From Planoprotostelium fungivorum (lineage: Eukaryota > Evosea > Variosea > Cavosteliida > Cavosteliaceae), in assembly GCA_003024175.1 (NCBI GenBank), contig MDYQ01000005.1, positions 248,001 through 312,000 of the forward strand: a DNA stretch of 64,000 nt, given 5' to 3'. The position numbers and the translations under genes were made by a program. Within the stretch, counting starts at the first letter, position 1; every line of letters begins with the position of its first letter. Below the pieces are notes generated by a model that worked only from the letters and a program-made list of their open reading frames with translations, had not been told where the DNA came from and did no database searches. Positions 1-62,203 of this stretch are shown here, in pieces.

Positions 1-143
1 TAATCGGCGCAATCTCTGTGAGAGAGAGTCTAATGTGACCTCAGTTTCGCTCATGTTTGAAATGATTCGAGGTCAGGTGATGTGGCGATTCGCAAGATTC
101 AGACATCGGAAGGTGAGATGATCACCACAAAGAAGAAGAGAAG

Positions 144-1900
144 ATGTCAGACGATGAGATTCCCAGGGCTGAGCCCATTCCTCACCTCGATCTGTCTTTA
201 GATGTGGAGAATGATGTCATGTGGCAGAGGAAGAAGGTGACAGCGAGAGAAGAGAAAGGAATGGAGTGGGCCATTAACATCAACCTGAGTAAACCCCAAT
301 CGGAGAAAGAACTGTGGGAAGGTGATTATCATCATCACGAGGAGACAATTGAAAGAGACTGATGAAGGACAGTCTATAAGAATGTGAAGCTCTCGAGTCA
401 CGGTGGGGATGGAACAGGTTTTCCTGGCGCAGTCAGTTTTCTCGGTTTCAGTGCAGATGGCAATCAGTCCGAGTTATTTGGTGAAAAGGTCAGCGAGAAT
501 AGATTGAATACCTCTCTTGCATCATCATCGACTTGCTATCAGACGTCATCTGATAAATCGAACAGTTTCTGATGAGAGAATGTGGAGAGGAACCTGAGCA
601 ATATAAGGTGACCATGCCCAACCGTAAACCCAAACGCCCGAAGAAGTTCCAAGATGTGTGGATAGACATCATCGTGCATCACCACTGACATCCCAAGATC
701 TTGGTCGTCGTCAAATTGATATCGAGAACATATCACAGTGTAGAAGACCTTTCTGATGAAGAAGAAGAGGAGGAAGAAGAGATGCAAGAGGAAGACCAAG
801 CGATGGACGCCCAGCCCAATTCAGAGGTCGTCCTCTATTCTACATCTTTTCATCTATCTTTTCATCCATCACACAACCTCCACACTCCATCTCCATCAAC
901 ACGACACTCATTCAACATCATGCAATCCCATCTTCACATCGGCTCATCATGATCCAGGGAGAGATCGAAGTCGTGGAACTCTTCAACGACGACCGCGAAT
1001 TAGAACCCGAGCTCATCGGCAGGGAGGACCTCCAAAAGTTGTTGGTCCAAGTGCAAGAAGCAACAAAGAACTACGATAAGAAGGCCAAAATCGCACCAGA
1101 AGAACCAGCAGCAGACGGAGCAAAGAGGGCGGAGACGTTGGCTGAGACCATCGACTTCTGCGATCACGTGACCGGAATCGAGCTGCTCGCTCCACGGGGG
1201 TGTGTTCGCATTCAAGTGGAACTACCCAGCGGGCTGACGAGATTTCAGCGGATTTTCCGGACCACAGTTGTACGATACGTTGGTGTCTTTAGGGTTTACT
1301 TATGAGCCGGAGAGCAAGCAGTTCCTCATGGACCTGACGGACCATTTGTCTCAACTGAAGAGAGATTACAACAAGAAGAAGAAGATCAACCCAATCAGAG
1401 GGGGCAGGCCGAGGAGGCCAGAGCCTGAAGTGAGATGGAATGTCTCGTTGTAGACTGAATGGATGGTAGGAGGACGAAGAAGAGGAAGAATCGGGGCTGA
1501 TGGAGGTGAGAGATTCGTGGAGAATGCGTGGGACAATCTGACACATGTGATAGGTCGTGGGCAGTACTGGCATGGAGAACTTGAGCCAAACGGCTATGAC
1601 GGACCCGCAGGCCAGGCTGTCCAGTCTCTCCTTTCAATTCTTCCTGCCTCATTGTAGATACCCGTTCACGCTGGCCAGAGCGGTCGTGTTAGCTGCAGAA
1701 GAAGTGAGAAGGAGATTGGGTGGAGAGGTGAAGTTTCAAATTTTGAATTCAGACCGTTGATTTTCCGTTAGATCGTAGACATCGACCGGCGACCTTGTCC
1801 TTCTCATAATCCAGTCATCGACGAAGTGAAGGAGATGATGATGAGCATGCAGAGGGCGGGCTTGCGACCGGGCAGCCCAGAGTGTGGCTATCTCTTTTGA
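144..1900 (+). CDS. Protein with C-terminal ZipA-C-like domain
   Basis: I read about nine exons; the firmest are 144-321, 373-488, 566-about 667, about 700-826, 958-about 1198, about 1252-1429, 1470-1505, 1554-1727 and 1772-1900. The stop is TGA at 1898-1900, with AATAAA just after. The N-terminal half is acidic and low in complexity (a run of eight Glu near 755-780) and matches nothing I know. The C-terminal third resembles the FtsZ-binding domain of bacterial ZipA: GIELLAPRG followed by FSGPQLYDTLVSLGF, then GMENLSQTAMTDPQ, FQFFLP, and EEVRRRLGGE spliced to IVDIDRRP. ZipA has the same order (a hydrophobic strand, NGxxLLxxLxxxGLxxG, xxENMxxFSTPG, FMQLP, LAxELGGEVLDDxRRP). No ZipA-like N-terminal membrane helix is evident. 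An in-frame Arg-rich extension (ATG at 53 or 62, joined by a possible 31-base intron 113-143) could be a mitochondrial presequence. The domain call rests on remembered family patterns, not on a search. Confidence 0.5.
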
Positions 1901-2263: not shown

Positions 2264-5200
2264 ATGAGCGGGCCCAACGCAGCCGCCAAGCCAAAGAAGT
2301 TCTGGAATCTATTCGGATGGACGAAAGATTCACCACCCATTGAAGCCACGAGCCCATCGAAGGAAGATGCGGGTGATTATGCATTATCATTAGAACGGCC
2401 GTCGTTGACATGGGTTTAAAGGGAGAAAGACTTCAGAGGTCTCGCGGAATAATAAGACGATCACTGCGGAACAGAGGTGAGTCGAGATGGACTTAAAATC
2501 GTCTAAAATGTCTTTCTTTCGTTGCCAGTCTCTAGAGTTTTTTCGTTATGACTCGTAGCTTTATCATTAACATTAACACATTCCATTATCTCTTCGTATT
2601 ATCATCAATAGAAACACTGATTCTCGGCGTAGAAAGAGTATAAATGCTGGAAAGAAGGCGTCCAATACCCTCAGGTAAATCCTCCACCCGCTAACACCCA
2701 GAACTTCATGGACTCATATTCCGCAGCCCATCGAGCCGTGTCTCCCCCGATGTTACACCGGGTAGCACCATCGGATCGACGTCTTCCATCTCGTCTTCAT
2801 CTTCTAAAGGCAGTCGAAAATCAGTCATGTCCATTCTCCCCATGATGAACGCCGCCGCCGGTATAGAGCCCACCTCCTCTTCTCCAGGTCACGGAGATAG
2901 CATACAGAAAGCGAAACAGGTGAGCACATGATGTCAAATCACAATGTCGATCTCCTCTGATCATTCGTTCCCATTGGACAAAGCGTTCTCGATGCATCTC
3001 TTCGACATACACACACCTCACTTCTCCATCCATCTCATGATCTATCCTACATAACAAGCGACCCGTCTCTATTTTATTTCCTTTTATTCACCATCCTCTC
3101 TCGTTCCCCACACTGAACAAAGACAGACTATCACTGAGATCGAATCGTTCATTCAGAAGGAGCTGGCCATGATGACCGCCGATGACGTCATCGTCGACCG
3201 ATTGGACAGTCCAGACATGTCCATGAAGAAGGTGAGCGTCTCCTCTCATCCTCTCTCACCTCTTCCAGCGGCCGGGCCCAAAGTTGATCAAGCCAGTCAA
3301 CAAAAAGAAGAATAAAATGGTCATGGGAAATATGGAATACGACCCCGTGAGGAACGTATGGACGGGTGAGTCAGAAATGGCGGGAATTTCGAAATTCAAA
3401 TTTCGAAAGGCAACGAACAAGAGCTGGACGTCTTTCAGAAGGTCGGCGGGGCGATTCCTCTCATTAGAAACGTCGGACACGACAAGGACAAGCCACAAGG
3501 TGAAATATATGGAACGTAACGTACGCTCAACGGTCTCAGTTGTGGGTGACATGGTCTTCGATCCAGTGGAGCAGAAGTGGATCGGCAACGAGAAAGACTT
3601 GAAGAAATTTGGACTGAACATTCAGAACATACAACCGATGGAAGCAGATCAGGCCATAAGTGAGTTTCACTTTCCATTGTGGCTCGTTGTAGTGCGACGG
3701 ATCGACGCGTTGTAGTTTGACGTCACGGCTCGTTGTAGTCTGATCCACTTGGCAGTCACGGATGGAATGATGTTCGACCCCGAGACGATGAAATGGCAGG
3801 GAAACGAAGAGTCCATCGACATTTTTGAAGGCTTAGACGACTTAGACTCCCAACACTCCTTCAAGGTGAGTCACCCTCCGTGTCTTTAGACATCTGACGT
3901 GTCGCCGCAGGTCAGCGAGGGCGAATTCAACATCACGGATCTGGTCAAATCGTTTCGTGATTGGGAGGAGGAGCACAAGAAGTTGGGAGCTTGGCTTTTA
4001 GATGGCCCAGGGGACAAGAACGATCGCGACCACTTCAACGATATCCGCGGGGTGGGCTCGTTGTAGATGGAAATTTCTCTGAACGTTCCAGATGGCCGTG
4101 AATCGTATCGTGAGTCAGGCGAAGAAGGCGTCGGCTGCGGCGGCAGTTCTGATGATACCACCTCCTTCACCTCCGTCCATTCCTTCTCTTCACACTCTCA
4201 GCCCCTCTGCCTCTCTGGCCAGTCCTGTGCCCGTCAAGTGAGTGATCGTCTGATGACGGACAATTTATTCTATCTTATTTTCATTTCAATCTTTCACTTG
4301 GCCTGCGTTTGGATATATCGAAATATATGATCGTCTACAACGGTGTAGATTGACGTGCGGCAGATTTTCGAGGAGGTCGGTGATGAGAGAGTCGGGCTTG
4401 GGTGAAGTCTTGGCGACCTCTCCCAGAGGCTCGTCTTCCGTCCCCTCACTAGAGAGGAAGAAGGTGCGCCTACATCGTTGTAGATCGAACGTTCACGGAT
4501 TTTTCAGTCGATCGATGCGGAAGATTGGGACGACGTTGACATTCCGTCCGGTCTCAAAGTCAAGGTGAATTTTCGTCGATTTATGTTCGTCTACAACGCT
4601 GACGTGATACAGACCGCAGAGGATGCCCCTGACGTACTGATAGCTCCATCGGCAGAAGCAACAGACACACCGACACCGGTACCATCATCATCATCCATGT
4701 CATCCCAATGCATCACATCACATCACATTGCAACATCGGACATCACATCGCATCACCTTCCATCACAGACTGACTCTCCATCAGACGAAACCGGACGCGC
4801 TCAACCAGTACAAAGACGATGATGACGACGGCTTCGGTGATGTCGTAGTCGATTTCAGCCGAATCAAGACCTTGAACCGCACGTCGTCCACAAACAGCAT
4901 GGGAAGCAATCTCTCTTTCTCTAGCGGCACCATGGGCTCCGTTCAATCCATAAAGAAGGACGGTGACGCCAAGTGAGTCCATCACGAACATCATCACGGA
5001 GACATGCGTCCATCACAGACATCACGTCCATCCTCGAGACGTTCGACTTCTAATGAGTCTATCAGGTTCGATTCCGATGATGATGAAGACTTGGAAGACT
5101 TTTCTACAACACATTCTCATCAGAAGACCATCTCGATCTCGAACCCTCGGGCCAAACAGCTGCTTCCATCAGGAACAGCCACCATGAGCCGAAAGTTGGG

Positions 5201-34078: not shown

Positions 34079-34169
34079 ATGTAACATAAAAAAGTGTGGG
34101 GAGAATTACTGCACGTGAAACTGCTCGATGATGTCGCCATGATGACTGCATCTGTGAACGATACAGAGA

Positions 34170-34286
34170 GCTACGATCACACCTGGATGAACACTCACGA
34201 TCCCAGGTCGAACTCGTCAGGTAAGCAGCCGTGGGCGATGTAGTACTGTGATGGGTGACCGCACGGGAAGCCATCGTATCGTAGCC
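34170..34286 (+). rRNA. 5S ribosomal RNA, variant copy
   Basis: The 5' end GCTACGAT pairs with the 3' end ATCGTAGC. Between them are the 5S landmarks: an A-box-like GTCAGGTAAGCAG, GTAGTACTGTGATGGG and the C-box GATGGGTGACCGCACGGG. A run of five T follows as the polymerase III terminator. The copy is about 116 bases. It differs from the 43 kb copy in the loop A / helix III part (ACACTCACGATCCCAGGTCG here, GACCCACGATCCCATGCCG there) and lacks one C after GATGT. The other copy is nearer the usual eukaryotic sequence, so this one may be a variant or a decaying copy. Confidence 0.88.
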
Positions 34287-34567
34287 TTTTTCTTCTCCCA
34301 GCTCATCCGAATAGTGCGTTTTTTTACGAGATGGTGTCCTCTTCATCTCATCAACAACTAAGTTTTATCACATGAGACGGTGAGAACGACAGGCTTACAT
34401 GATGTTCACGGTGCGAATGATGAGCGATCGTCGACAGATGATAGTAGAACCGTTTATTTTGTAATTCAGTGATAGCTAAACCACCGGTAGATACGGTCCT
34501 CACCCGAGCTGCCTCACACGCGTGTGAAGGATCGAACAGGATTCCATTGTAGTGTTAATGATCCTGC

Positions 34568-42578: not shown

Positions 42579-42670
42579 TCCTCGATAGTATAGTGGTGAG
42601 TATACAAGCCTGTCAAATACGCGCAGCGTACAGATCGCTTGGGACCCGGGTTCAATTCCCGGTCGGGGAG
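42579..42670 (+). tRNA. tRNA-Asp (GUC) with a 20-base intron
   Basis: The acceptor arm TCCTCGA pairs with TCGGGGA and is followed by the discriminator G typical of tRNA-Asp. The D arm is TAGTATAGTGGT. The anticodon stem CAAGC/GCTTG closes a loop CTGTCA+C with anticodon GTC. The T arm is ACCCGGGTTCAATTCCCGGT. Between A37 and C38 lies AATACGCGCAGCGTACAGAT, a 20-base intron at the canonical 37/38 position. A TTTT run follows within about four bases as a polymerase III stop. Confidence 0.93.
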
Positions 42671-42777
42671 CTCTTTTACCTGTTGTGACCTGTACTGGCT
42701 ATTTGGAACCTTTCTGTACCCTTTCTACCGTGATAACACGATTTTTAGACAATTTTAGAGCGATATTAGGAAAATAG

Positions 42778-42795: not shown

Positions 42796-43056
42796 ATACG
42801 ATAAATCCCACAAGTGTCAATACATCATTTGTTCCAACGACCCACATAAGTTGGGTTGTGACAGAATTTGAGGATCACCACGAGCAGTAACTGCAACTGT
42901 TCACCCGTTCAACTTACATGTTGAGGTTGAAAAGTTCAGTTCCCTTCTTTACTTCATCAACTTGCACCTTCTGTTGATGATCGCATCTCGCGTGTACATG
43001 CATCATCACCATCGTCTCCAAGCATGACAGCCAAAGGATTGTTGAGAGAAGAAAAA

Positions 43057-43173
43057 GCTACGATACGATGGCTTCCCGTGCGGTCACCCATCACAGTACT
43101 GACATCGCCCACGGCTGCTTACCTGACGAGTTCGGCATGGGATCGTGGGTCTTCATCCAGGTGTGATCGTAGC
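43057..43173 (-). rRNA. 5S ribosomal RNA
   Basis: On the minus strand the sequence runs GCTACGATCACACC to CGTATCGTAGC, 117 bases, with closed terminal stem GCTACGAT/ATCGTAGC. It includes CCCACGATCCCATGCCG and AACTCGTCAGGTAAGCAG, then GATGGGTGACCGCACGGG. Five T (AAAAA on the plus strand at 43052-43056) follow. It is a canonical-looking 5S gene, 9 kb from the variant copy and in the opposite orientation, so 5S genes are dispersed here rather than in a tandem array. Confidence 0.93.
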
Positions 43174-43775
43174 TGTGAGAGGATAAAAGTTTCCCGTGTC
43201 TGTTGTACGACAGTAGGTGTTTTCCTTGGATTTACAAACCTATTGCACTTTTCTCTATCTACGCCATCGGTGCACGTAATGAGAGAGGATTGCGAACTTA
43301 TTAAAGGCAATACGATGATGTTTGTCCAAGATTATGTGACAGTCAGTCAGATCGGTACTTTATCGTCAGCCTTTGCATCGCGTCTTTATCCTCATCTTGA
43401 GTATTCTCTTACATCGTTGTTGCCTCCAAGCCCAAGCTAAGAAAAAGTTGCGGAAATGAAAGATGGAAAAGAGACAAAGAAGGCAGAAGGAATGAAACCA
43501 TTGTCTCATCGTCCGGTTGGTTTGTAAAACGAAAATAAAATAAAGGCTTGGGGGAAATTTCAGCATTTTTACCGAAAAGGAAATCTCAATAACCCACAAC
43601 CGACAGAGACACGTACACGTTGACCATCGAGTCAGACATGCCGGCACAAGACATAAGACAATCGCAAGTTACAAAGAAGAACCACGTGAGCTGCGACTTA
43701 ATCTAGATATGGATTTGATCTGACTCAAGATACAGGCACGACGACACTTTAAAGGTTCGGAGTCAACAGTCAGAC

Positions 43776-60717: not shown

Positions 60718-61075
60718 GAAGAGTTGATGTAGACACCATAGAAGGACTGGAGAGTGAGCTGGAAGAAATAAATGTGGTGTCACAGACTGTCTTCAAGTGA
60801 CTTGGATTTGCTTTGATGTTGACAGCAGCTGATGGACGTGATCAGAGGAGGATGGATACGCTCGCCGTCATGAACACGATAACCATCGTGCCATCTGTGA
60901 CAGTCACAATAGAGTCATCCTCGAGGTGTCTACGAGATCTCGTCTGTCTTATGGAGGGAGGCTAGATTTGCCGCCTTCTCAAATTTAAAGGCGCGGAGGC
61001 CGTCAACTTGTCCCGCGCGTTCTGGTCAATTTGAAAAGCCAGTACAGTTCAACTCATTTCACTTTCGAGCAAGCC

Positions 61076-62203
61076 ATGCCTAGAAGACCCTCCTATAAAT
61101 CCATGATCCTTGGCATCATCAAGTCTGAGCCAGAGAGAGCCCTCTTCTCACACGTCTACTTAAAGAAGAAGATAGTAGAAGAGCACACACTCATCACAGA
61201 GAACAATCTCAAGAGATACACGAAACTCGCTCTGGACAAACTCGTCGCTGATGGAACATTAGCCCAAAGAGCGCAGTCATACAAGATGAGGAAGGCGAAA
61301 CCCAAGAAGAAAGCAAAGAAACCTTCACCCAAGGCCAGAAGTCCCAAGTCTGCCTCTGGTACAGCAAGAAAACCGAGAGCTCCTAAATCCTCCATTCGAT
61401 CCATCGATGCCCTCCCCCCAACCGGAGACTTTTCAGACCGTCAGCCTCAATCCACCGGACCAGACAGCGGCATGACCGAGCTCATCTTCGCCTTCGACAC
61501 CACTGGTTCAATGGCAGGAGCCATCGCAGAGGTCAAAACCAAAATCACTCACACCATCGATCGACTCTTCCGGGACACACCCCTCATTCGCATTGGACTC
61601 ATAGCTCACGGAGATTACTGTGACGGACCAGTGAACGCCCTCCGTCTTCAAGACTTTGTCCAGATGGGAGATTCCAGCAAGCTCACCGAGTGGGTCAACA
61701 CTGTCACATCGACCGGTGGAGGCGACGGAGATGAGAACTACGAGATGGTACTGGAACACGCACACGACAAATTCTCTTGGACCGAAGGCAGCCGAAGAGT
61801 GTTGGTCATGATCGGTGACGCTTCTCCTCACGCACCAGCAGAATGCCTACGACAGATGAAAGAGTTCAACATCCCCGATCCGAGAGCCATCGATTGGATC
61901 AAAGAGACCGACGCATGCTGGAAGAAGGGCATCAAGATCTACTCCGTCGGCGTCAACTGCTCTCTACCCTTTCATAGAGAGATCGCTGAGAGGACATGCG
62001 GAACTCACTTCACCATGCAAGGTTTCGAAGGCGTGACCGACATGATCTTAGCCCTCTGCTTCAGAGAGCACAGCGGAGGCAGCCACTACGGACAGTTCCT
62101 CAAGGAGGTACAAGCGGAAGGAAGAATGACCAGTAACATGCAGAGACTGGTCAAGCAGCTGTCCACGACGATTGCACCTGAGACGGCAGCCACCTGTTCA
62201 TAA
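61076..62203 (+). CDS. Linker-histone (H15) winged helix fused to a VWA domain
   Basis: An intronless gene of 375 codons from the ATG at 61076 (MPRRPSYKSMILGIIKSE). Residues about 1-70 fit the H1/H5 globular domain: RPSYKSMILGII, VYLKKKIVEEH, NNLKRYTKLALDKLVADGTL and LAQRAQSYKM. A histone-H1-like Lys/Pro/Ala tail follows (KPKKKAKKPSPKARSPK). From about residue 125 comes a von Willebrand A domain: ELIFAFDTTGSMAGAIAEVK with an intact D-x-T-x-S MIDAS, IGLIAHGDYCDG, TGGGDGDENYEMVLEHA and RRVLVMIGDASPHAP. KIYSVGVNCSLPF and MILALCFRE close it. The C-terminal tail ends TIAPETAATCS. VWA domains of this style occur in the Dictyostelium VwkA kinase, but no kinase is present here. DNA or chromatin binding is inferred from the N-terminus. 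Confidence 0.86.
   Translation: MPRRPSYKSMILGIIKSEPERALFSHVYLKKKIVEEHTLITENNLKRYTKLALDKLVADGTLAQRAQSYKMRKAKPKKKAKKPSPKARSPKSASGTARKPRAPKSSIRSIDALPPTGDFSDRQPQSTGPDSGMTELIFAFDTTGSMAGAIAEVKTKITHTIDRLFRDTPLIRIGLIAHGDYCDGPVNALRLQDFVQMGDSSKLTEWVNTVTSTGGGDGDENYEMVLEHAHDKFSWTEGSRRVLVMIGDASPHAPAECLRQMKEFNIPDPRAIDWIKETDACWKKGIKIYSVGVNCSLPFHREIAERTCGTHFTMQGFEGVTDMILALCFREHSGGSHYGQFLKEVQAEGRMTSNMQRLVKQLSTTIAPETAATCS

Follow-up and report, generated by a model that had tools for sequence, protein, structure and literature searches.

Sequence comparison indicates that the product of a gene near the beginning of the window, as modelled, is a divergent homologue of bacterial ZipA, with a C-terminal domain of the FtsZ-binding type and a tail that together span five exons. 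The window is the whole 64-kb stretch of DNA that was analysed (contig positions 248,001-312,000), and it lies on a contig of 317,154 bases in a genome of 36.9 Mb and 471 contigs. In bacteria, ZipA anchors the division ring of the cell to the membrane; to our knowledge it is otherwise known from bacteria only, and the open-licence literature searched yielded no description of a eukaryotic ZipA. The ZipA-C-like domain had been proposed in the first-pass annotation, and the profiles, the C-terminal tail and the reciprocal whole-genome searches agree with that proposal. Homology to ZipA may thus be regarded as established for practical purposes, with the reciprocal searches providing what we consider the main evidence.

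The four motifs on which the proposal was based are all encoded on the + strand between 958 and 1900, in the order that had been given. This region contains five open exons whose spliced product has 253 residues (Table 1). The introns between these exons are of the GT-AG type and measure 49, 40, 48 and 44 nt, and leaving them unspliced results in stops or a change of frame. A search of the organism's own genome with the spliced product gave four matches, all of which were its own exons at its own locus. Farther upstream, the ATG at 144 is the first in-frame ATG past the start codon of the divergent minus-strand neighbour, which was identified as dynactin p22 (PF07426, E 2.4e-24, exons joined approximately), and a simple splice enumeration of the linker region returned six alternative parses. 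By eye, the octamer CGTTGTAG was seen to recur inside several introns as read, for example at 1446-1453 and 4059-4066, and it is possibly a branch-site or a decoy acceptor.

Table 1. Features at the ZipA-like locus (window coordinates).
Feature	Position	Strand	Remarks
Dynactin subunit p22, 5' end of divergent neighbour	1..54	-	Start codon 54-52
Probable first coding exon	144..321	+	MSDDEIPRAEPIPHLDLSL..., acidic; open frame; putative start codon
Linker with further exons	373..826	+	Ends in acidic run DEEEEEEEEMQEED; exact structure uncertain
Exon, helical lead-in and first strand of ZipA-C-like domain	958..1199	+	First strand TGIELLAPRG
Exon, first helix and second strand, then beginning of charged insert	1249..1429	+	GFSGPQLYDTLVSLGFTYEP (first helix and second strand)
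Exon, acidic end of insert	1470..1505	+	EDEEEEESGLME
Exon, core of ZipA-C-like domain	1554..1727	+	MENLSQTAMTDPQ...FQFFLP...AAEEVRRRLGGE
Exon, IVDIDRRP... and C-terminal tail	1772..1900	+	Tail QRAGLRPGSPECGYLF; stop 1898-1900

Other features of the window were recorded as well. In the next gene (about 2264-5000, + strand), the short motif Mx(Y/F)DPxxxxWxGNE occurs three times. It is reminiscent of Bfa1/Byr4, a GAP subunit that acts in the spindle checkpoint of yeasts; for this gene, all Pfam families stayed below their cut-offs. One long frame at 60989-62197 (+) combines a linker-histone H1/H5 match (E 2e-9) with a von Willebrand A-type match (E 3.1e-7), and this pairing is unusual. Two 5S rRNA genes lie on opposite strands (34169-34287, +, and 43055-43174, -), and a 93-nt tRNA-Leu (CAA) is located between them at 42579-42671 (+).

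When the spliced protein was compared with the 24,736 families of Pfam, ZipA_C (PF04354) ranked first, with an E value of 0.0094. The comparison with this family that had been suggested earlier was therefore borne out in the ranking but not in the score, as the whole protein reached 16.3 bits and the protein with its charged insert cut by hand reached 19.2 bits, both below the curated cut-off of 23 bits. The NCBIfam search of the spliced protein gave no match, and the PDB sequence search gave no relevant one, its sole match being 4-hydroxybenzoate octaprenyltransferase at E 1.5. A frame-by-frame search of the own genome with PF04354 gave nothing at E 0.001, as expected for a weak domain that is split over exons.

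Eight profiles were then built from bacterial ZipAs; those of the tail class were made after the tail was seen, so that their E values look better than they should. ZipA_C is present in 130 of 398 sampled genomes from the phylum of an Escherichia, and a set of 75 ZipAs was formed from that of E. coli K-12, 34 loci returned by the searches and 40 more retrieved by coordinate among the divergent and intermediate matches listed. Against the 75-ZipA profile the window protein scored 16.2 bits (single-sequence E 3.7e-7), while the best shuffle reached 11.5 bits among 20,000 full and 20,000 local shuffles, 40,000 having been made and 23,964 scored by HMMER. Shuffle counts in this report are shuffles made, of which HMMER scored about half to four fifths in most runs. 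Among 2,168 reading frames drawn from the window and three own-genome loci (one overlapping the window), the highest score with the same profile went to the frame containing the exon at 1554; counting distinct frames, the one containing the exon at 1249 ranked third. In profile-profile comparison with the 75 ZipAs, the uncut protein reached 54.0%; removing the insert by hand raised this to 94.7%, and 300 shuffled versions of the cut copy reached 3.7% at most. A 41-residue piece of the exon at 1249-1429 (TGIELLAPRGGFSGPQLYDTLV...) scored 6.3 bits, a value reached by 3 of 30,000 shuffles. The lead-in helix of the exon at 958-1199 was not significant by itself (2.3 bits, reached by 1,520 of 30,000 shuffles), and no ZipA counterpart of the exon at 1470-1505 was found in the alignments made. 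Identity to the 63 aligned ZipAs was 13-24%. A single 58-residue exon was also folded, and the model, of low confidence (mean pLDDT 64) and uninformative, consisted of two helices and no other elements.

The tail of the window protein was used neither in the argument of the first-pass annotation nor by the Pfam match. The protein ends in QRAGLRPGSPECGYLF, which resembles the ending found in one bacterial ZipA class (GI-PGS-ALRLF). In 28 of the 75 bacterial ZipAs, a helix past the Pfam domain ends in GIxxGSxxAxRLF or a near variant; the class is defined by a C-terminal helix with G-[IL]-x-x-G-S and LF at or near the end, and the window protein has these features. A profile of the 28 tail-class ZipAs scored 22.0 bits against 8.8 bits for the best of 20,000 shuffles, and profile-profile comparison of the uncut protein with this class gave 92.0%. 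When the profile was restricted to the final 34 residues, the last exon of the gene came first of the 2,168 frames, and its score was reached by 3 of 50,000 shuffles; the frame of this exon was also first of 2,168 with the 21-sequence profile described below. The gene order is smc-zipA-ligA in two tail-class genomes (G326 and G354), and zipA adjoins ligA in two more (G368 and G110), and these neighbours show that the tail-class genes are real zipA genes at the loci inspected. The ZipA of Neisseria gonorrhoeae can be assigned to the tail class because the zipA reverse primer given in PMC5727935 reads back as ALRLFS-stop. In tail-class ZipAs (L136, L153 and others) the conserved part exceeds PF04354 on both sides, with a lead-in QLADRSG...LDxFC and a tail GIxPGSxxAxRLF, which suggests that the PF04354 model is cut short for this class. 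The ZipA relative described here also suggests that others like it can escape notice because the Pfam model ends short of the tail. In three of the 398 proteobacterial genomes (G054, G318 and G399) ZipA_C matches twice, and the weaker match, which lies in a frame about 200 aa long, may represent a short paralogue of ZipA.

The reciprocal searches used the window protein alone as the query, with no profiles, against six-frame translations of whole genomes. The first sample consisted of 369 genomes from the class of G326, a genome chosen because no other ZipA matched the window protein better in pairwise comparison. At E 0.05 there were matches in twelve genomes, and of the 10 loci that were fetched, three were ZipA in register (L175, L177, which is that of G326 itself, and L181), while seven were not recognised by the ZipA profiles, including the best-scoring one (L174, 45% over 38 residues). 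The second sample comprised 57 genomes from the order of G597, the source of L175, chosen because G597 had matched. Here 27 genomes gave a match, and in 26 of them its place was the zipA gene of that genome, the single exception being G785; the places of these matches and of the PF04354 matches were compared by eye. With G597 and G478, which were known beforehand, left out, 24 of 25 matches fell on zipA. PF04354 was present in 53 of the 57 genomes, and a locally shuffled query matched in none of the 57. All 21 loci examined from this order were ZipA by profile. With a profile of these 21 the window protein scored 33.7 bits (single-sequence E 1.3e-12), and 30,000 shuffles reached 11.4 bits at most; the score is flattered because the loci were picked by their match to the window protein, and profile-profile comparison of the uncut protein with them gave 94.7%.

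The window protein departs from bacterial ZipA in several respects. A charged insert of about 47 residues takes the place of the short loop that connects strands two and three in ZipA. The modelled protein showed no transmembrane segment, its best 19-residue hydropathy being 1.34 (with the exon structure of 373-826 uncertain); for comparison, 68 of 75 bacterial ZipA frames reach 1.6 within their first 120 residues. The likely N-terminus, starting at 144, is acidic, with a net charge of -6 over 60 modelled residues. The N-terminal exons look like the N-terminal region of ZipA by eye, and this candidate was rejected at a profile score of -1.3 bits, with 16,669 of 40,000 shuffles as good or better in a run in which nearly all shuffles were scored by HMMER. 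At ten positions that we take to be FtsZ contacts in E. coli ZipA, two residues are identical in the window protein; these changes say little, since the alignment is uncertain at these positions and two other compared ZipAs differ from E. coli there too.

An exon at 53-112 had been put forward as encoding a mitochondrial presequence. The peptide MFEMIRGQVMWRFARFRHRK is indeed encoded there, but its status as an exon found no support: the peptide begins on the dynactin p22 start codon (54-52), and the implied intron (113-143) would have 31 nt, less than any of the six other modelled introns (40-131 nt). On these grounds the exon appears doubtful.

The genome also holds an FtsZ-like gene (L168, C315:40634-42036), to which six matches spread across 1.4 kb belong; stops occur in one of these, as would be the case for a gene broken by introns. 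Another match of this search, on C465, was rejected as tubulin. As read from the frames, the host FtsZ ends in ...RKKEAEVTVEASETTAGALDDLKKAFHKIKKNWW, its last residues being LDDLKKAFHKIKKNWW. In a pattern search of a 3.5-kb stretch, the usual C-terminal peptide, which binds ZipA, was absent from the host FtsZ as read, and three loose matches to the pattern all lay beyond the FtsZ stop. The cationic helix LDDLKKAFHKIKKNWW, possibly amphipathic, stands where the usual peptide would be, and it might bind the membrane directly. By eye, the frame upstream of this FtsZ contains FSRHFSSG, which resembles a mitochondrial cleavage site. Of the Min proteins, no MinC_C was found in the own genome, and MinD gave one MinD-type exon at 35 bits, below the cut-off. 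According to one report (PMC12583498), anchors such as FtsA, ZipA and SepF bind FtsZ via its conserved C-terminal motif. Because the genome holds FtsZ, a possible partner for a ZipA-like adaptor is present in the cell, mitochondrial location and binding being possibilities.

A bacterial origin of the gene is likely. Transfer from a proteobacterium would be the simplest origin because the relatives found in the collections searched (bacterial genomes, genome_contigs and viral_contigs) were all bacterial, with none found in the scans of genome_contigs and viral_contigs. A tree tried for the donor was uninformative, as it left the window protein unplaced on a long branch (length 2.2). Taken as a whole, the explanation that we consider quite probable is that of a ZipA homologue gained by proteobacterial transfer and then remodelled into what may be a soluble adaptor. 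The gene would have entered this lineage or an ancestor of it. Later it would have acquired introns, a new N-terminus of acidic character and the charged insert that separates strands two and three, and its membrane anchor would have disappeared. Such an adaptor would bind a short peptide from its partner in the ZipA groove, and its acidic N-terminal half might act as a flexible arm.

As for the partner, a cytosolic or nuclear one is rated likelier than the host FtsZ. We give about an even chance to the idea that the fold was kept while the protein took on a new task in the cytosol or nucleus, unrelated to FtsZ, together with a putative eukaryotic partner. The acidic N-terminus, the lack of an anchor in the modelled protein, the large charged insert and the differences at eight of the ten presumed contact positions are in keeping with it, although those positions carry the alignment uncertainty described above. 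A ZipA-like role, in which the protein is imported into mitochondria, tethers the host FtsZ to their inner membrane and contributes to mitochondrial division, appears unlikely. The intron-broken FtsZ gene with its upstream FSRHFSSG and the retention of the core and tail of the domain speak for such a role, as does the statement in PMC5727935 that the tail-bearing gonococcal ZipA partly complements an E. coli zipA mutant; the same paper also reports a two-hybrid analysis in which gonococcal ZipA showed no interaction with any tested division protein, FtsZ included. The proposal of a mitochondrial division factor is further weakened by the doubtful presequence exon, the acidic start at 144, the missing transmembrane segment and a host FtsZ that as read ends without the usual peptide. 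The first-pass interpretation thus holds for ZipA homology in an intron-bearing gene, while its mitochondrial part is neither proved nor disproved and appears somewhat disfavoured by the sequence. It is likewise rated unlikely that a zipA acquired from bacteria was remodelled with introns by a eukaryote and now serves alongside the mitochondrial FtsZ of the host; if true, a bacterial Z-ring tether would again be working inside, or at the surface of, mitochondria.

A chance resemblance to ZipA is very unlikely because of the reciprocal result, in which nearly every match in the second sample fell on zipA and the shuffled query found nothing, and the match of the tail lies outside the Pfam model. 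These observations have to be set against the weak Pfam score, the best match in the 369 genomes, which is not ZipA, and the fact that chance matches are bound to turn up when a sequence is read with an eye for the unexpected. Bacterial contamination, or a recent and unchanged insertion, is practically ruled out even though ZipA is otherwise familiar to us from bacteria alone, because the gene sits 248 kb into the 317-kb contig, in its interior, and adjoins dynactin p22, and its GT-AG introns, from which the first-pass annotation had correctly argued, and its low identity to the aligned ZipAs agree with this.

The presence of a ZipA relative and FtsZ in one genome provides a testable case. The question posed is whether a transferred division protein rejoined mitochondrial FtsZ, or whether a peptide-binding module was reused otherwise. 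In protist mitochondrial FtsZ/Min systems, bacterial division parts are likewise encoded in the nuclear genome, and FtsZ is present here too. Nuclear-encoded mitochondrial FtsZ is described for amoebozoans, glaucophytes, red algae, stramenopiles and haptophytes in PMC4164004. Unlike here, no ZipA is reported for such systems in the open-licence literature searched; in the Nannochloropsis genome ZipA was sought and none was found, consistent with its absence in other heterokonts, according to PMC3499364.

The C-terminal domain of E. coli ZipA belongs to the same family as that of the window protein. E. coli ZipA has a transmembrane anchor and, unlike the window protein, a Pro/Gln-rich linker and no tail, and the residues that we take to be its FtsZ contacts mostly differ. 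Betaproteobacterial ZipA, such as that of N. gonorrhoeae, is membrane anchored, and the gonococcal protein has the same kind of tail as the window protein. The ZipA of the order of G597 differs from the window protein in that the latter has introns, the 47-residue charged insert, an N-terminus unlike that of ZipA and no anchor that was found, and identity is at most 24% over 153 aligned columns. The core and the tail nevertheless align in register, with LANLYQPGSFDP...LARRLGGRLFDADRKPLSD...GINPGSLNAVRLF of L175 standing against MENLSQTAMTDP...VRRRLGGEIVDIDRRPCPS...GLRPGSPECGYLF of the window protein.
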